A stretch of DNA of 35,646 nucleotides. Origin: Sanguibacter inulinus. Its GTDB lineage: Bacteria > Actinomycetota > Actinomycetes > Actinomycetales > Cellulomonadaceae. The position numbers and the translations under genes were made by a program. Location: assembly GCF_013415325.1 (NCBI RefSeq), contig NZ_JACBYE010000046.1:1-35646 (forward strand), written 5' to 3'. This document shows positions 2,441-35,389 of this stretch, piece after piece. The number at the start of each line of letters is the position of its first letter. Position 1 is the first letter of the stretch. The notes under the pieces were generated by a model. That model was not told the origin of the DNA. It did not search any database and saw only the letters and a list, made by a program, of their open reading frames with translations.

Positions 2441-5041
2441 TCAGGCGTTCTCCCGCACCACGTCAGACGGCGACTTGTCCGTCCGCCACCCGCGCCACAC
2501 AGGGTGGCGCAGTCGTCCCTGGGCGGTCCAGCCGCTCACGGCGACCTCGCCGACCCTGTCCGCACGGACCCAGTGCGCGTCCCGTGCGTCGGCCGCGGGG
2601 ACGTCGTCGACCGGTGGCGTGGCACGCGGGTGGCGGGCCAGCTCTTCGGCCAGCCGTCCGAGCGTCGCCTCGGTGAAGCCTGTGCCGACCCGGCCCGCGT
2701 ACCGGAGCGTCCCGGAGTCGTCGGGCACGGCGACCAGCAGGGAGCCGAGGGTCTCGGCACGTGCGCCGTTTCCGGTGCGCCACCCGACGACGACCACCTC
2801 CTGCGTCTGCACGTGCTTGACCTTGACCCAGGTGTGGGCCGGTCGCCCCGGCCTGTACGTGCTCGACCTGCGCTTGGCGACGATCCCCTCGAGACCCAGC
2901 TCCTTGCTCGCCGCCAGCGCGGTCGCGGCGTCCGAGGTGAAAGCAGGCGGCACGTGCACGGGTCCAGACTCGGTGACGACCTCCTCGAGCGCTGCGCGTC
3001 GCCCGTCGTACCCGACCCGCGTCAGCCGGCGACCAGCACGCTCGACGAGGTCGAAGGCCATGTAGTCGACCCGCTGGGCCTTCTGCGCCGCGGCGACGTC
3101 CCGGCGGGCCGTGAGGTTCATGCGCGTCTGCAGCCGGCCGAAGTCAGGTCGGCCCCCGCGGTCCAGGGCGACGATCTCGCCGTCGAGCACCACGTCTTCC
3201 GTCACGCACGACGAGAGCACCTCGAGCTCGGGGTACGAGGCCGTGAGGTCGTTGCCGTTGCGGCTCGTCAGGCGCACCGACCCTGGGGACCCCTCACGGT
3301 CCGCGACCACTGTCGCGATCGCCCGGATCCCGTCCCACTTCATCTCGAAGGCCCAGTCGTCCTCGTCGAGGTCCTCGACCGACCCGGGGGTCGCGAGCAT
3401 GGGCGTGATCGGCTTGGCAGAACCGCTGCTGCTGCCGCCACTGCCGCTCGCGCCGTCGCGCACCTCCGTCGCGGTGTCCTCGGCCGCCCCGTCGCCCGCG
3501 CCCTCTCCAGACCCGTCCGAGGAGCCACCCGTGCCCCCGCCCGCGCGACGCCGCCCGCCGTGCGAACCTGCACCCTCGTCGGCCATCTTGTGCACGAGCC
3601 ACGAGTTGCCACCCCCGGTGTGCGCCGTGTGGATGAGCGCGAGGCGTCGCGACCCACGGTCGGTCCCGCCCGAGCCGTCGCTGTGCAGGGTGACGATGAC
3701 CTCCTCGCCCTCGCGCCACTTGTGCAGGTCGTAGGTGCCGCGGTCCCAGATCGACACTGTGCCGGCGCCGTACTCGCCCTTCGGGATCGTGCCCTCGAAG
3801 CTGCCGTACTCGAGCGGGTGGTCTTCGGTCTGCACGCCGAGCCTGTTGTGGGTCGTGTCGACAGGCTCACCCTTGGGCAGCGCCCAGCTGACGAGCACAC
3901 CGTCGTGCTCGAGCCTGAAGTCGTAGTGCAGCGCCCGCGCGTGGTGCTCCTGGATGACGAAGGTCGGCGCGGCAGCCTCCTCGCCGTCGGACGTCGCAGC
4001 AGGTCCCCCGGACGGAGCCTCGGGGACCGGCTCAGGTGTCTTCGACGCGTCGCGCTTCGACCTGTACACCTCGAGCCGGTCCGTCCGCTCGAAGCCGGCC
4101 ATGCGCTCGGCCGTCGGCTCGAGCGCCGCGTGGCCTCCGGTGAGCAGCGGCGCGAGCAGGTCGCCGTCGCGCTCGAGCCTGGCGACCACCTCGTCGGCGA
4201 GGAGGTGCTCGAGGCCTCCTGCCTCGAGCTCGGCCCACGTGCGGGGCGCGGCGACGTAGGGCTTGTCCCGGCCACGCAGCGAGTACGGGCTGATCGTCGT
4301 CTTGTTGCGGTTGTTCTGCGACCAGTCGACGAGCACCTTGCCCTCGCGCAACGACTTCTTCATGTCCGAGACCACCATGTCGGGGTGGTCGGCCTGGAGC
4401 GCCCGGGCGAGCTCGTGCGCGACGGCGCTGACGGCGTCGGAGTCGTGGGCCCCGTCGAGCGCCGCGTAGAGGTGGATCCCCTTGGACCCGCTCGTCACGG
4501 GGAAGGGCTCGAGGTCCATCCCCGTGAGGATCTCCCGCGCCCACAGCGCGACCTGCACGCACTCGTCCAGGCCGGTCCCCGGGCCAGGGTCGAGGTCGAG
4601 GACCAGCCTGTCGGGCCTGTGCTCGACCCCGGTCCGGCCGAACCTCCACTGCGGCACGTGGATCTCGAGGGCGGCGACCTGACCCAGCCACGTGAGCGTC
4701 GCGAGGTCGTCGACGAGCGGATAGGTGTTGACGTGGTCGGAGTGCTGGATGTCGCGCCTGTGCACCCAGTCGGGAGCGGAGTCGTCGAGGTTCTTCTGGA
4801 AGAACACCGGCCCGCCCGTGCCGTGCACCCACCGCTTGCGGGTCGCCGGACGTCCCGTCGCGTGGGCGACGAAGGGCTGGGCGACCGCAGCCAGGTAGGC
4901 GAGCACGTCGGCCTTGGTGGTCCCCGTCTCCGGGTAGACCACCTTGGACAGGTTGGTCAGCGTGACCTTGTGCCCGTCGATGGTCACGGTCTCGCGCTGC
5001 GCGTCGCGCCGCGCGCCGCCGGTGCTGTCGTCGTCGGGCAC
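2441..5041 (-). CDS. ligD: Multifunctional ATP-dependent DNA ligase LigD (POL-PE-LIG)
   Basis: 866-aa end-processing and ligation enzyme of bacterial non-homologous end joining. Domain order is polymerase/primase (about 20-290; metal motif DLDPG 149-153, SGSKGIH 184-190, and the DWSQNNRNKT block 239-248), 3'-phosphoesterase (about 360-487; QEHHARALHYDFRLE and EDHPLEYGSFEGTIPKGEYG), a Gly/Ser linker (488-542), and ATP ligase (543-866; adenylation motif KWDG with Lys568). This is the mycobacterial order, unlike Pseudomonas LigD (PE-LIG-POL). GTG start with GGAGG 5 nt upstream. It is divergent from ku across about 150 bp and convergent with the VTC gene (34-bp gap, no clear terminator). All three activities look intact by motif. 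Confidence 0.96.
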   Translation of the reverse strand: MPDDDSTGGARRDAQRETVTIDGHKVTLTNLSKVVYPETGTTKADVLAYLAAVAQPFVAHATGRPATRKRWVHGTGGPVFFQKNLDDSAPDWVHRRDIQHSDHVNTYPLVDDLATLTWLGQVAALEIHVPQWRFGRTGVEHRPDRLVLDLDPGPGTGLDECVQVALWAREILTGMDLEPFPVTSGSKGIHLYAALDGAHDSDAVSAVAHELARALQADHPDMVVSDMKKSLREGKVLVDWSQNNRNKTTISPYSLRGRDKPYVAAPRTWAELEAGGLEHLLADEVVARLERDGDLLAPLLTGGHAALEPTAERMAGFERTDRLEVYRSKRDASKTPEPVPEAPSGGPAATSDGEEAAAPTFVIQEHHARALHYDFRLEHDGVLVSWALPKGEPVDTTHNRLGVQTEDHPLEYGSFEGTIPKGEYGAGTVSIWDRGTYDLHKWREGEEVIVTLHSDGSGGTDRGSRRLALIHTAHTGGGNSWLVHKMADEGAGSHGGRRRAGGGTGGSSDGSGEGAGDGAAEDTATEVRDGASGSGGSSSGSAKPITPMLATPGSVEDLDEDDWAFEMKWDGIRAIATVVADREGSPGSVRLTSRNGNDLTASYPELEVLSSCVTEDVVLDGEIVALDRGGRPDFGRLQTRMNLTARRDVAAAQKAQRVDYMAFDLVERAGRRLTRVGYDGRRAALEEVVTESGPVHVPPAFTSDAATALAASKELGLEGIVAKRRSSTYRPGRPAHTWVKVKHVQTQEVVVVGWRTGNGARAETLGSLLVAVPDDSGTLRYAGRVGTGFTEATLGRLAEELARHPRATPPVDDVPAADARDAHWVRADRVGEVAVSGWTAQGRLRHPVWRGWRTDKSPSDVVRENA

Positions 5042-5102
5042 AGGGGCCTCCGTCGGGTGTCGGGTACGTGGACCGTCTCACGGCAGCCGTGCCGCCCGGG
5101 TG

Positions 5103-5128
5103 GGTCCGCCGGCGTCGTGCGGCGGACC
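5103..5128. repeat. 9-bp perfect inverted repeat between ligD and ku
   Basis: GGTCCGCCG and CGGCGGACC separated by 8 nt, in the divergent ligD-ku region. A second small palindrome, CACGGC-A-GCCGTG, lies at 5079-5091. Either could be an operator for the two divergent promoters. The regulator is unknown and chance GC-rich symmetry is possible. Confidence 0.4.
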
Positions 5129-5191
5129 GTCGCTGACAGACCCATCATGGCCACGGGTGCGACCCTCGGCATCCGGGAGCATCATGGGGTG

Positions 5192-6253
5192 ATGCGAGCG
5201 ATCTGGAAGGGTGCCGTCACGTTCGGGCTCGTCAACGTGCCCGTCAAGCTGTACAGCGCGACCGAGGACCACGACGTCGGCCTGCACCAGGTGCACGACA
5301 CCGACGGCGGCCGGATCCGCTACCAGCGCCGCTGCGAGGTGTGCGGCAAGGTCGTCGACTTCGGTCACATCGCCAAGGCCTACGACGACGGGGAGCGCAC
5401 GGTCGTCCTGACCCCGGACGACCTCGACGCGCTGCCCGTCGAGCGCAGCCGCGAGATCGACGTGGTCGAGTTCGTGCCGCGCGACCAGATCGACCCGATC
5501 ATGTACGAGCACGCCTACTACCTCGAGCCCGACTCCAAGTCGGTCAAGTCGTACAGGCTGCTCGTGCGGACCCTCGAGGAGAGCGACCGCGTCGCCGTCG
5601 TGTCCTTCTCCCTGCGCCAGCGCACCCGGCTCGCGGCGCTGCGCGTACGGGGCGACGTGCTGCTGCTCCAGGTCCTGCGCTGGGACGACGAGGTCCGCGA
5701 GCCGGAGTTCCCTTCTCTCGACGAGACGCCTCGCATCACCGCGAAAGAGCTCGAGATGGCCTCGGCGCTCGTCGCGAGCTTCGAGAGCGACTTCGAGCCC
5801 GAGAAGTTCACCGACGAGTACCAGGTGCAGCTGCGCACCCTGATCGACGCCAAGCTCGAGCACGGCGACGCCGTCGACACGGCCGCGACCTTCGGCGAAG
5901 AACCCGACGAGGAGAAAGAGGACGGGGCCGAGGTCATCGACCTCATGGAGGTCCTGCGCCGCAGCGTCGAGCGCTCGCGCGGGTCAGGGTCGGGCACGTC
6001 GAACGGCGGCAGCTCGGACGACGGTGCTGAGAAGAGCTCGACCTCCAGACGCAGCCCGGCCAAGAAGACGCCGGCGAAGACGAGCGCTGCGAAGACGAGC
6101 GCTGCGAAGAAGCCAGCAAGCTCCGGTGCCTCAGGCACCAAGGACTCCGGCTCGGCCTCGAAGGCCCCGGTGAAGAAGACCACCGCGCGTGCCACCGCGA
6201 CGAAGGCGACGTCGGGCTCCGCGAAGAAGACCCCGGCGAAGAAGACGGGCTGA
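5192..6253 (+). CDS. ku: Ku DNA-end-binding protein
   Basis: 353-aa bacterial Ku, a homodimeric ring that threads onto double-strand DNA ends and recruits LigD. It begins MRAIWKGAVTFGLVNVPVKLYSAT, the invariant Ku N-terminus, which fixes the start although the frame is open for 2.7 kb upstream on the antisense of ligD. A GTG one codon earlier is possible; GGGAG is at 5175-5179. The Ku core ends near residue 250. An acidic stretch (about 236-247) is followed by a Ser/Gly linker and a Lys/Ala/Pro-rich tail (about 285-353, PAKKTPAKT repeats), a DNA-binding extension also known from mycobacterial and streptomycete Ku. Divergent from ligD. Confidence 0.96.
   Translation: MRAIWKGAVTFGLVNVPVKLYSATEDHDVGLHQVHDTDGGRIRYQRRCEVCGKVVDFGHIAKAYDDGERTVVLTPDDLDALPVERSREIDVVEFVPRDQIDPIMYEHAYYLEPDSKSVKSYRLLVRTLEESDRVAVVSFSLRQRTRLAALRVRGDVLLLQVLRWDDEVREPEFPSLDETPRITAKELEMASALVASFESDFEPEKFTDEYQVQLRTLIDAKLEHGDAVDTAATFGEEPDEEKEDGAEVIDLMEVLRRSVERSRGSGSGTSNGGSSDDGAEKSSTSRRSPAKKTPAKTSAAKTSAAKKPASSGASGTKDSGSASKAPVKKTTARATATKATSGSAKKTPAKKTG
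6074..6110 (+). repeat. 15-bp tandem repeat in the ku tail
   Basis: The unit GCGAAGACGAGCGCT occurs twice exactly (6074-6088, 6089-6103) and starts a third time. It encodes AKTSA repeats in the Lys-rich C-terminal tail and stays in frame. Slippage here would change tail length without breaking the gene. Confidence 0.8.
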
Positions 6254-31562: not shown

Positions 31563-32567
31563 ATGGCCGCCCCCCGAAGCTCAGCACGTGGCAAGACCCC
31601 TGGACTCGCGTGGGACGAGGCGACGCTCGCACCTGTCGTCCTGGTCCACGGGGCCGAGGGGCTGCTCGTCGACAGGGCTGTCGAGAGGCTCGTCGGGCTG
31701 GCCCGTGAGCTCGACCCCGAGACCGAGAAGACGACCGTCCAGGCCGCGCTCTACCAGTCCGGCATGCTCTCGGTCCTCACCAGCCCGTCGCTCTTCGCCG
31801 AGCCGCGGATCGTCGTGGTCGAGAGCGTCGAGGCGACGACGGACGCCCTGATGACCGACGTCATCGCCTATCTCTCCGCGCCGGCCGACGACGTGTTCCT
31901 CGTCCTCGAGCACCGCGGGGGAGTGCGCGGCAAGAAGATGCTCGACGCGATCCGTGCGAGCGGCGCTCCTGTGGTCACCTGCGACCCCATCAAGAAGGAT
32001 GCCGAGAAGGTGGCCTTCGCGGCTGCCGAGTTCAAGCGCGGCGGGCGCCGAGCCACAGCGGGTGCGGTCCGCGCGCTCGTCGAGGCCGTCGGCAGCGACC
32101 TGCGCGAGCTCGCGGCGTCCTGCTCGCAGCTCATGGCCGACTCCGAGAAGACCATCGACGAGACCGCCGTGTCCCGCTACTACGGCGGACGGGTCGAGGC
32201 GACGGGCTTCAGGGTCGCCGACGCTGCCATCGCCGGCGACGCCGGTCAGGCCGTCGCCCTGCTCCGCCACGCGCTCGACACCGGAGCCGACCCCGTCCCT
32301 GTCGTCGCGGCCCTCGCGATGAAGCTGCGCACCCTCGCCAAGGTGGCTGGGATGCGCGGCCGGGGCGGCAGCGCCTCTGACATGGGGCTCGCGCCGTGGC
32401 AGGTCGACCGTGCCCGCAAGGACCTCGCGAGCTGGACGCCGGAGGGCCTCGCGACAGCCATCACGGCGACGGCCCAGGCCGACGCCGAGGTCAAGGGTGC
32501 CGGCCGTGACCCGGTCTTCGCCGTCGAGCGCGCAGTCCTCACCGTCGCCCGCAGCGCGGGCCGCTGA
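31563..32567 (+). CDS. holA: DNA polymerase III delta subunit
   Basis: 334-aa clamp-loader subunit that opens the sliding clamp. The N-terminal AAA-like domain has LVHGAEGLLVDRAVERL and the domain boundary SPSLFAEPRIVVVE; it lacks a functional Walker A, as normal for delta. DPIKKDAEKVAFAAAEFKRGG and LRELAASCSQL are typical of HolA. ATG 12 nt after comEC; the comEC-holA order is conserved in actinobacteria. A hairpin overlaps its stop codon. Confidence 0.95.
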   Translation: MAAPRSSARGKTPGLAWDEATLAPVVLVHGAEGLLVDRAVERLVGLARELDPETEKTTVQAALYQSGMLSVLTSPSLFAEPRIVVVESVEATTDALMTDVIAYLSAPADDVFLVLEHRGGVRGKKMLDAIRASGAPVVTCDPIKKDAEKVAFAAAEFKRGGRRATAGAVRALVEAVGSDLRELAASCSQLMADSEKTIDETAVSRYYGGRVEATGFRVADAAIAGDAGQAVALLRHALDTGADPVPVVAALAMKLRTLAKVAGMRGRGGSASDMGLAPWQVDRARKDLASWTPEGLATAITATAQADAEVKGAGRDPVFAVERAVLTVARSAGR

Positions 32568-32588: not shown

Positions 32589-34118
32589 TCAGGCGTCCCG
32601 GAACACCGTGATCTGCGCACCCAGCGCCGTCAGGCGGTCGGCCAGGTCTTCATACCCACGCCGGATCATGTACACGTTGCGCAGCACCGAGGTGCCCTGG
32701 GCGGCGAGCATGCCGAGCAGCACCACGACGGCCGGGCGCAGCGCCGGCGGGCACATGAGCTCCGCCCCGCGCCACCGGGTCGGGCCCTCGACGAGCACGC
32801 GGTGCGGGTCGAGCAGCCGGACGTTCGCGCCGAGGTTCGTCAGCTCGGTGAGGTAGATCGCGCGGTTGTCGTAGGTCCAGTCGTGGATGAGGGTCCCACC
32901 CTCGGCCGACGCCGCGATGACGGCGAAGAACGGCAGGTTGTCGATGTTCACGCCTGGGAAGGGCATCGCGTGGATCTTGTCGATCGGCGCCTTGAGGTCG
33001 CTCACGTGCGTGGTGAGGTCGACCAGCCTGGTCCGCCCGTTGGTCGACATGTACTCCTCGGTCATGTCGTAGCGGAAGCCCATGGTCCGCAGGATCGCGA
33101 GCTCGATCTCGACGAACTCGATCGGCACCCGTCGGATCGTGATCGACGACTTCGTCACGACAGCCGCCGCCAGGAAGGTCATGGCCTCGACCGGGTCCTC
33201 CGACGGTGCGTACTCGATGTCGGTGTCGATCACGGGCACCCCGTGCACCACGAGCGTCGTGGTCCCGATGCCCTCGATCTTCACGCCGAGGTCTTCGAGG
33301 AAGAAGCAGAGGTCCTGGACCATGTAGTTCGGGCTCGCGTTGCGGATCGTCGTGGCGCCGTCGTGACGGGCCGCTGCGAGGATCGCGTTCTCGGTGACGG
33401 TGTCGCCGCGCTCGACGAGCACGATCGCACCGTCCGCCCGGCGCTCGTGGTCGACCTCGACGTGGTACTTCTCCTCGGTCGCGCGGACCTCGACGCCGAA
33501 GTGACGCAGCGCGAGCATGTGCGGCTCGACCGTCCGGGTCCCGAGGTCGCAGCCCCCGGCGTAGGGGAGCTGGAAGGCGGGGCGGTCGTGCACGAGCGGG
33601 CCGAGCAGCATGAGGATGCTGCGGGTGCGGCGCGCCGCCTCCTGGTCCATCTCGTCGAGGGCGAGGGTCACGGGTGGCTGGAGCACGAGGTCGCGGCCGT
33701 CCTCGGTCCACTCGGCGCTCACGCCGATGCTGCGCAGCACCTCGAGGATGCGGTCGACCTCGGCGATCCGTGCGACCCCGCGCAGGGTGGTCCGTCCGCG
33801 GTTGAGCAGCGAGGCGCAGAGCAGCGCGACGGCGGCGTTCTTCGACGAGCGGATGTCGACGGCGCCGTTGAGCTCACGGCCACCATGCACCCGCAGGTGC
33901 ATGACGTCGTTGCGGCCCAGCGTGAGGAGCTCGGCGTCGAGGGCCTCGGAGATCCGCCGGACGGTCTCGAGCGAGAGGTTCTGGCCACCCTTCTCGATCC
34001 GGTTGACAGCGCTCTGGCTGGTCCCGATCTTCTCGGCCAGGTGCGCCTGGGTCCAACCGTGGAGCTTGCGGGCGTCGCGGATGAGGGTACCGATCCGCGC
34101 GGCATCGATCGTCGTCAT
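32589..34118 (-). CDS. MurA-type enolpyruvyl transferase with N-terminal XRE helix-turn-helix
   Basis: 509 aa. Residues about 8-62 are an XRE/Cro-type HTH (LHGWTQAHLAEKIGTSQSAVNRIEKG). Residues about 73-509 are a full UDP-GlcNAc 1-carboxyvinyltransferase-like fold, the first step of peptidoglycan synthesis: SSKNAA with Lys93/Asn94, GGCDLGTR with Cys190 aligned to the E. coli Cys115 loop, Asp393 in FPGVNIDN aligned to Asp305, and IRRGYEDLADRL near the end. The catalytic residues look intact, so the protein may be both enzyme and repressor. ATG 34118 is chosen because TACGGT sits 7 nt upstream; GTG 34127 is possible. An 18-bp palindrome covers its promoter. A standard murA is expected elsewhere in the genome. 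Confidence 0.88.
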   Translation of the reverse strand: MTTIDAARIGTLIRDARKLHGWTQAHLAEKIGTSQSAVNRIEKGGQNLSLETVRRISEALDAELLTLGRNDVMHLRVHGGRELNGAVDIRSSKNAAVALLCASLLNRGRTTLRGVARIAEVDRILEVLRSIGVSAEWTEDGRDLVLQPPVTLALDEMDQEAARRTRSILMLLGPLVHDRPAFQLPYAGGCDLGTRTVEPHMLALRHFGVEVRATEEKYHVEVDHERRADGAIVLVERGDTVTENAILAAARHDGATTIRNASPNYMVQDLCFFLEDLGVKIEGIGTTTLVVHGVPVIDTDIEYAPSEDPVEAMTFLAAAVVTKSSITIRRVPIEFVEIELAILRTMGFRYDMTEEYMSTNGRTRLVDLTTHVSDLKAPIDKIHAMPFPGVNIDNLPFFAVIAASAEGGTLIHDWTYDNRAIYLTELTNLGANVRLLDPHRVLVEGPTRWRGAELMCPPALRPAVVVLLGMLAAQGTSVLRNVYMIRRGYEDLADRLTALGAQITVFRDA

Positions 34119-34125
34119 GCCCGCC

Positions 34126-34131
34126 ACCGTA
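34126..34131 (-). promoter_or_regulatory. -10 box TACGGT of leaderless HTH-MurA gene
   Basis: Minus-strand TACGGT, 7 nt, then ATG at 34118. The palindrome 34130-34147 abuts and partly overlaps it on the upstream side, within the expected -35/-10 spacer. Confidence 0.5.
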
Positions 34132-34147
34132 TCTCATAGATGAGATA
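34130..34147. promoter_or_regulatory. Palindromic operator in the HTH-MurA promoter
   Basis: TATCTCAT-ag-ATGAGATA, perfect 8-bp arms, AT-rich in a very GC-rich region. It would block RNA polymerase if bound. XRE proteins commonly bind such short symmetric sites, so autoregulation by the HTH domain of the adjacent gene is the simplest reading. Confidence 0.7.
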
Positions 34148-34786: not shown

Positions 34787-35389
34787 TCAGCGTCGAGCGG
34801 CCGTCACGACCTTCGTGAACACGGCCTCGGGCAGGATCGCACCCTCCCGGCGGACGGCCCCAGGGTCGACCCGCACGACGCGGTCGACCCGCACCTCGCT
34901 GTCCCGGCCCTGCGAGTCCCACGGACCCGAGCCCACGTCGACCCACCGGCGTCCGTACCGCGCCTCGTCGGCGGCGTCGCGGCTGTGGTCCTTGCTCGTG
35001 AGCATCAGCCCGAGCAACCAGGCACCGTCCCGCCCGACGAGCAGCACTGGCCGGTCCTTGCCGCGGGAGAAGTCTTCTTCGTAGGGGACCCAGGTCCAGA
35101 CGATCTCGCCAGGGTCCGGGGCGCCGTCCAGCTGAGGCGAGTACTGCGGCCGCAGGGCGCCTGTGAAGTCGCCGGGATACGCAGCTGCTGCGGTCGACCT
35201 GGCCTCGGTCCCCCCGGCTGACGCACGTGCGCGGACGCCCCCTCGACTCCCGCCGTCGCGCGCGCCTGCGCCGCCGCCGCGCGGAGCCCCTGCCGCCGGT
35301 CGCCCTCCCGCCGTCCCGGCTCGCGTCAGGCTGCCGATCACGGCTCGCGCGAGACGGACGGCTGTCGAGGTCCAGGGAGTCTTCGCCAT
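34787..35389 (-). CDS. PemK/MazF-family toxin-like protein, solitary
   Basis: 200 aa. The C-terminal 110 residues match the PemK/MazF endoribonuclease fold: PGEIVWTWVPYEEDFSRGKDRPVLLVGRD, then LGLMLTSKDHSRD. Residues 1-85 are an Ala/Gly/Arg-rich extension not present in classical MazF. No antitoxin ORF is adjacent on either side, and the gene lies between rpsT and the gene at 35619, so a chromosomal housekeeping or orphan role is as likely as a toxin. ATG with TAGCCT (35396-35401, minus) 6 nt upstream, predicted leaderless. RNase activity is unproven. Confidence 0.8.
   Translation of the reverse strand: MAKTPWTSTAVRLARAVIGSLTRAGTAGGRPAAGAPRGGGAGARDGGSRGGVRARASAGGTEARSTAAAAYPGDFTGALRPQYSPQLDGAPDPGEIVWTWVPYEEDFSRGKDRPVLLVGRDGAWLLGLMLTSKDHSRDAADEARYGRRWVDVGSGPWDSQGRDSEVRVDRVVRVDPGAVRREGAILPEAVFTKVVTAARR

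Follow-up and report, generated by a model that had tools for sequence, protein, structure and literature searches.

A probably autorepressing MurA with a fused XRE-type helix-turn-helix domain in a distinct actinobacterial clade

Trigger enzymes such as BirA, PutA and NadR consist of a metabolic enzyme with an added DNA-binding domain and act as transcription factors (Commichau and Stulke 2008, cited in the accessible part of PMC8249747), and PutA is termed a single-target regulator in the same part of that article (PMC8249747). In the window analyzed here, a stretch of 35,646 nucleotides from the actinobacterium Sanguibacter inulinus, we find a gene of similar construction, referred to as HTH-MurA, in which a DNA-binding domain is fused to a MurA-type enolpyruvyl transferase and whose promoter carries a conserved operator linked to that domain. 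It differs from BirA, PutA and NadR in its enzyme, which is that of the first committed peptidoglycan step, and in that its own gene is the only target found. Furthermore, its DNA-binding domain is of the XRE type, whereas those of the BirA and PutA types are winged-helix or ribbon-helix-helix domains. What appears to be new with respect to the known trigger enzymes is the enzyme and, as far as seen, the single target, its own gene. Judging from comparative sequence analysis, we consider it very probable that HTH-MurA represents a separate actinobacterial clade of MurA enzymes that are autorepressing, in analogy to BirA and PutA.

MurA, the target of fosfomycin, catalyzes the first committed step of cell-wall synthesis. 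To our knowledge, the control of MurA known so far is post-translational, namely feedback by UDP-MurNAc, CwlM in mycobacteria and ReoM/ClpC in Firmicutes. The canonical enzyme, represented by E. coli MurA and by a gene on contig C17 of this genome, shares with HTH-MurA the fold as well as the catalytic and PEP-binding residues; however, it carries no HTH, its UDP-contact loop reads SVGAT rather than GDTVT, and it retains D369, the counterpart of which is lost in HTH-MurA.

In Streptomyces coelicolor, SCO5998 has been named MurA2; the accessible parts of the two articles concerned describe it as one of two UDP-GlcNAc transferases, encoded by a monocistronic gene with a SigB-dependent promoter and a predicted site for the iron regulator DmdR1, and mention neither an HTH nor autoregulation (PMC12161575, PMC8346170). 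No paper treating SCO5998/MurA2 as a regulator was found in the literature searched, which has subscription papers mostly outside its reach. The Streptomyces loci that we retrieved, amongst which SCO5998 itself does not occur, encode the same HTH and the same MurA domain (about 70% identical to the window protein) and carry the same site before the start codon; on this basis SCO5998 is taken to be a member of the HTH-MurA family, with L103 (S. violaceoruber) presumably serving as a close stand-in for it. The original prediction knew of no characterized example, which needs qualification: an ortholog is named in print as MurA2/SCO5998, but its HTH goes unmentioned in those parts of the articles.

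HTH-MurA is encoded by a single open reading frame on the minus strand (32589-34127; Table 1), in which Pfam detects both an HTH_3 domain (E 4.5e-15; 55.9 bits against a Pfam cut-off of 23) and a complete MurA-type domain (EPSP_synthase, E 3.4e-45, residues 81-499), in agreement with the fusion proposed originally. HipB is amongst the solved structures matched by the HTH (E 1.7e-5 to 6e-5), whereas here the HTH is fused to an enzyme. An AlphaFold2 model, built on 23 sequences and with a mean pLDDT of 80.9, features four N-terminal helices (residues 6-23, 27-34, 38-45 and 53-67) in addition to the MurA domain, and is least certain at the N-terminus, in the linker (residues 65-73) and in the Cys, Asp and Arg loops. 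The top PDB matches of this model in a fold search are MurA structures; NikO (4fqd) was also found amongst the matches, but not better than MurA, and a NikO-like role was rejected. The true start is more likely ATG 34118 than the GTG 34127 chosen by the ORF caller, since the latter overlaps the -10 element; the ATG lies 11 bp past the operator, a spacing common to most orthologs. The gene is convergent with holA (31563-32567, plus strand), and upstream of it lie a frame for the S20 ribosomal protein and, upstream of that, a frame with a PemK/MazF-like toxin domain (34787-35389, minus strand; E 1.6e-7). Elsewhere in the window, a frame of 1249 amino acids (2504-6253, plus strand) has a Ku domain confined to residues 907-1085, and is probably a Ku gene within an over-long open frame of GC-rich DNA.

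Table 1. Positions in the window of the HTH-MurA gene, its domains and residues, and its putative control elements
Feature	Position	Strand	Remarks
HTH-MurA coding sequence	32589..34118	-	509 aa from ATG 34118; 512 aa if GTG 34127
XRE/HipB-like HTH domain (HTH_3)	33930..34082	-	Residues 16-66, 512-aa numbering; Pfam and solved-structure matches
Recognition helix QSAVNRIE	33993..34016	-	Residues 38-45, 512-aa numbering; predicted structure
MurA-type enolpyruvyl transferase domain	32631..33887	-	Pfam, NCBIfam, residue alignment, fold match
Catalytic K93	33840..33842	-	Numbered from ATG 34118
Catalytic C190	33549..33551	-	Numbered from ATG 34118
Catalytic D393	32940..32942	-	Numbered from ATG 34118
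Operator TATCTCAT-CT-ATGAGATA	34130..34147		Minus-strand reading; imperfect 18-bp palindrome
Predicted -10, TACGGT (TAnnnT)	34126..34131	-	Begins with the two bases that end the operator

A perfect palindrome of 18 bp overlapping the -10 of the gene had been proposed. The palindrome is real and its overlap with the predicted -10 holds, the two sharing two bases, but it is not perfect: two perfect 8-bp arms, TATCTCAT and ATGAGATA, flank a 2-bp center that is not self-complementary, so that the strands differ at 2 of 18 positions. The -10 follows the actinobacterial pattern TAnnnT. No strong -35 is seen at this gene, which has CACGTT at that position; amongst 185 distinct upstreams, 19 have a TTG at -35 distance (16-bp spacer). 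Transcription is predicted to start at, or 1-2 nt from, the A of ATG 34118, which would give a leaderless mRNA. When written as TATCT-N8-AGATA, the site spans the same length as the operator of HipB, which we take to be TATCC-N8-GGATA. Not one match with up to 3 mismatches arose in 100 shuffles of the window, and a search of this genome for further copies returned the site itself as the sole one at the same threshold. Together with the shuffled ortholog upstreams described below, these results rule out a chance palindrome.

Lack of the palindrome in orthologs had been named beforehand as an observation that would refute the proposal, and such a lack was not found. Amongst 205 distinct orthologous genes, 201 carry TATCTCA-N4-TGAGATA with at most 4 mismatches in its 14 arm positions, and the four exceptions have lost the recognition helix. 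The number of mismatches is 0 in 40 genes, 1 in 135, 2 in 16, 3 in 9, 4 in one and 6-7 in four, where the truncated N-terminal frame of genome G034 was included as is. An earlier set of 150 records gave the same picture (147 with at most 4 mismatches), and further families of the class agree. In order to reduce redundancy, 200 distinct proteins were clustered at 80% identity into 25 representatives, 24 of which have the site no more than 150 bp from the start and with 3 mismatches or fewer; amongst 1250 shuffled upstreams, three have a match with 3 mismatches and none a better one. Across these 24 representatives, ten site positions are invariant (2 bits), and the 12 preceding positions hold 0.03-0.54 bits. 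Phylogenetic inertia alone was ruled out as an explanation, because the upstream flanks diverge between families while several arm positions stay fixed; in a set of mostly Streptomycetaceae (L035-L126) the flanks are partly conserved as well.

The placement of the site is equally constant. It ends 10-13 bp before the start codon in 21 of the 24 representatives, and the fourth base past it is a T in 21/24 representatives as well as in 48/53 and 85/85 distinct upstreams of larger sets. The terminal TA of the site and this T would form a TAnnnT -10 about 6-9 nt before the start, and such proximity to the start codon predicts a leaderless or nearly leaderless transcript. Some loci depart from the common arrangement. 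Three of them (L143, L146 and L148; genera g62 and g51, family f13) have GGTATA as right arm of the operator, with the helix still TSQSA, and their genomes are also without a canonical MurA. In genus g13 of family f6 (L127, L147, L149-L152) the variant is mostly TA(A/G)CTCA...TGATAT(A/T), and the start is mostly just 8 bp away. In L218 (genome G838) and L219 (G757) HTH-MurA is split into two reading frames and the operator is kept.

A destroyed recognition helix is found in the four genes without the site and in no others. All four belong to one genus, two of them coming from the order sample, and five genomes of this genus were compared. In four of them the site is missing and MTxxDI replaces TSQSAV, while the fifth keeps both site and helix. 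Compared with the fifth genome, the four are 45-48% identical in the HTH and 78-80% in the MurA domain (residues 77-380 compared), whereas in four other, operator-bearing relatives HTH identity is 74-85%. By contrast with the site-less genes, all 200 aligned operator-bearing proteins (of 201 operator-bearing genes, counting frames above 300 aa) read TSQSA(V/I), SSQSA(V/I), TSQGAV or TSQSTI. Since site and helix are lost together, this HTH is tied to this site, and autoregulation via the conserved operator appears strongly supported. A strict code between helix and site was considered and discarded: TSQG accompanies a symmetric AACTCA/TGAGTT in three genes, but L221, which has the same site, carries SSQS.

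That the palindrome is instead bound by another regulator, the HTH having other targets, seems highly improbable to us. Binding of the palindrome by the HTH is a prediction, and SCO5998 of S. coelicolor has predicted DmdR1 and SigB inputs according to the accessible parts of the articles (PMC12161575, PMC8346170), which would leave room for such a factor; however, the joint loss of site and helix speaks against it, as does the distribution of the site, which accompanies the promoter of the HTH-MurA gene in many families and is not enriched elsewhere in carriers. In three Streptomyces loci (L070, L075, L101), the spacer sequence belonging to the published SigB promoter is found some 340-370 bp ahead of the HTH-MurA ATG, at a distance from the operator, so that transcripts started at this additional stress promoter would run across the operator; one of the two promoter strings taken from PMC8346170 has no match in any locus searched.

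Counts of the site across whole genomes bear on the number of targets. In the order sample the exact 12-base core stands before the gene in 24 of 55 carriers, the remainder having variants, and away from the gene there are 4 copies in the 55 carriers compared with 25 copies (in 22 genomes) in 143 non-carriers. A scan of ten carrier genomes found the exact core once in each and between 0 and 5 single-mismatch matches per genome. Neither result supports a wider regulon, and at the stringency used, which would pass over weaker or strongly diverged sites, no enrichment of the site elsewhere in carrier genomes was detected. We thus see no sign of targets other than the gene itself at this stringency.

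To assess the extent of the family, we analyzed the occurrence of HTH-MurA by protein search in genome samples of increasing breadth. Amongst the matches listed, orthologs with 60-96% identity were found in 55 out of 198 genomes for the order; for the class, HTH-MurA is encoded by 114 of 394 genomes, which belong to 26 of 138 genera (E up to 1e-60); and the phylum sample gives 17 of 396 genomes, one of these being an HTH-less relative at 35% identity. In a scan of named genomes, the best 80 of at least 591 loci are nearly all from Streptomycetaceae. Because no match amongst those listed falls between 60% and about 35% identity, HTH-MurA looks like a discrete actinobacterial clade.

We then asked whether the MurA domain is an enzyme. 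From 210 records, 200 distinct proteins of 495-580 aa were aligned to E. coli MurA, after leaving out four records for length (L128 and L153, which are the same gene of G034, L218 of G838 and L219 of G757) and the rest as duplicates. The counterparts of K22, N23, R91, C115, R120, H125, D305, R331, R371 and R397 are present in 200/200; with the exception of H125, these are residues known for catalysis and PEP binding in MurA. In the window protein, Lys93, Cys190 and Asp393 align with K22, C115 and D305, so that their retention, as noted at the outset, is confirmed. By fold and catalytic residues HTH-MurA is a MurA, while it is not an equivalog by the NCBI cut-off: it scores 304.2 bits against the 392.7 required by TIGR01072 (NCBIfam), but passes the MurA subfamily model PRK09369 with 315.8 bits, where 297 are required, and the HTH-MurA matches listed for other carriers are likewise all under the TIGR01072 cut-off. 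The loop at about residues 160-165 of E. coli MurA, to which we attribute UDP contact, is non-canonical, with S162G, V163D and G164T in 200/200 proteins and A165V in 199/200, and at positions 188, 190, 232, 304 and 369 no fewer than 199/200 proteins have a different residue. A comparison was made with eleven canonical MurAs, namely E. coli MurA and ten others, including the HTH-less relative L129 from another class. HTH-MurA has 19 positions that are fixed in at least 99% of its members yet unlike at least 10 of the 11; they include 162-165, 186, 188-191, 232, 304 and 369. At position 115, HTH-MurA has Cys in 200/200, while the ten HTH-less MurAs aligned (L154-L162 and L129) divide into six with Cys115, as in this genome, and four with Asp115, the fosfomycin-insensitive type of MurA; G142 has both.

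The presence of a second, canonical MurA varies amongst carriers. This genome holds three EPSP-family genes; the one on C17 is read as canonical MurA (437 bits, over the TIGR01072 cut-off), and one on C38 is read, from its TIGR01072 score and length, as a probable AroA. The two MurA-type genes are about 30% identical to each other. A separate murA, the existence of which was to be checked, is thus present here, but it is absent from many other carriers. Of 60 carriers tested (49 of the 55 from the order sample and 11 others of the class), 36 encode a further MurA that passes the TIGR01072 cut-off, and in 24 HTH-MurA is the only MurA. Within the order sample, no MurA above the cut-off is present in 25 of 55 carriers, as against 7 of 143 non-carriers (Fisher p 8e-11, in a test that ignores shared ancestry). 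The seven non-carriers are assemblies of 170-490 contigs from two families, and five show a match below the cut-off; one of the 25 carriers, G010, is a fragmented, partly contaminated assembly. Carriers without canonical MurA are spread over families f10, f13, f14, f17, f24 and f124, and in f14 and f17 sister genera show the opposite, with a canonical MurA and no HTH-MurA. In G034 the only MurA-like gene of the genome (L128/L153) is split by a frameshift near residue 390, which may be a sequencing error or real.

Peptidoglycan is needed by these bacteria and no other MurA is present in such genomes, so that HTH-MurA must, as judged from gene content, perform the MurA step there. This argues for enzymatic activity of the family and makes it most improbable that the MurA domain is a dead enzyme, serving the regulator as a ligand pocket: the changed UDP loop and the lost D369 counterpart would fit such a role, but the remaining residues checked for catalysis and PEP binding are conserved without exception (200/200), and 24 of 60 carriers have HTH-MurA as their sole MurA. 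A change of substrate could have occurred in genomes that also keep a canonical MurA, as this one does, because the UDP-contact loop and further positions are replaced; the operator would then serve that other pathway. The 19 positions fixed unlike canonical MurA, which include several of the UDP-contact loop and of 186-191, and the score below the TIGR01072 cut-off are in line with this idea, which we regard as unlikely, since the same residues are fixed family-wide, also in genomes with HTH-MurA as the only MurA, and the changed loop must therefore be compatible with the MurA reaction.

For the autorepressing MurA that we favor, the position of the site suggests how control would be exerted. 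A dimer of HTH-MurA would place its N-terminal XRE HTH on one operator, which takes up the spacer and extends into the -10 of a probably leaderless promoter, and the bound dimer would shut out RNA polymerase, such that the amount of the first-step cell-wall enzyme would be set by the enzyme itself. DNA binding as a dimer is presumed. Repression rather than activation is suggested because the site occupies the classic place of a repressor. Of the autorepressor layout in the original prediction, the site is borne out by its presence in 201 of 205 genes and its loss along with the helix, while repression itself is read from where the site lies. An autoactivator, in which the HTH recruits RNA polymerase rather than blocking it, is very unlikely: some XRE proteins do activate, but the site extends over the spacer into the beginning of the -10, a position from which a bound protein normally keeps polymerase away, and the four genes without site and helix retain a -10 of the sequence TACGAT, with an ATG following after seven nt.

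Whether the MurA domain is, depending on its ligands, open, closed or in the dormant complex of PEP adduct and UDP-MurNAc might alter the affinity of autorepressing HTH-MurA for DNA, as in BirA and PutA. In one version of this conjecture the tight PEP-adduct/UDP-MurNAc complex, known from MurA crystals according to the titles of the structures matched in the fold search, would be the repressing form, so that excess product would lower new synthesis. HTH-MurA would then be a direct sensor of cell-wall precursors, in which the UDP-GlcNAc-bound, the PEP-adduct/UDP-MurNAc or the fosfomycin-adduct state gates binding to a single operator in a leaderless promoter, and this self-regulating form would have replaced canonical MurA entirely in several lineages. 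We put forward this extended reading tentatively, giving it somewhat less than an even chance. A plain concentration homeostat, in which the HTH represses in proportion to the amount of protein and MurA ligands have no influence on DNA binding, is a serious possibility to which we likewise lean a little less than halfway. It explains all findings without ligand sensing, no coupling between the domains is in evidence, and model confidence in the linker region (residues 65-73) is low. Against it stands, by analogy only, that the known enzyme-repressors BirA and PutA bind DNA according to metabolite state. Trigger enzymes are also described, in the accessible part of PMC8249747, as regulators in the absence of their substrates, which again applies to HTH-MurA by analogy only.

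If the autorepressing reading is true, a MurA acting as its own single-target repressor would constitute a transcriptional feedback loop that needs no additional components. Such a loop would exist in Streptomyces as well as in several other families and, in some, act on the sole MurA. How precursor supply is matched to wall growth, an old question, could then be tested directly on a single protein and its 18-bp site, and there would be reason to re-examine the role of "MurA2" in Streptomyces.
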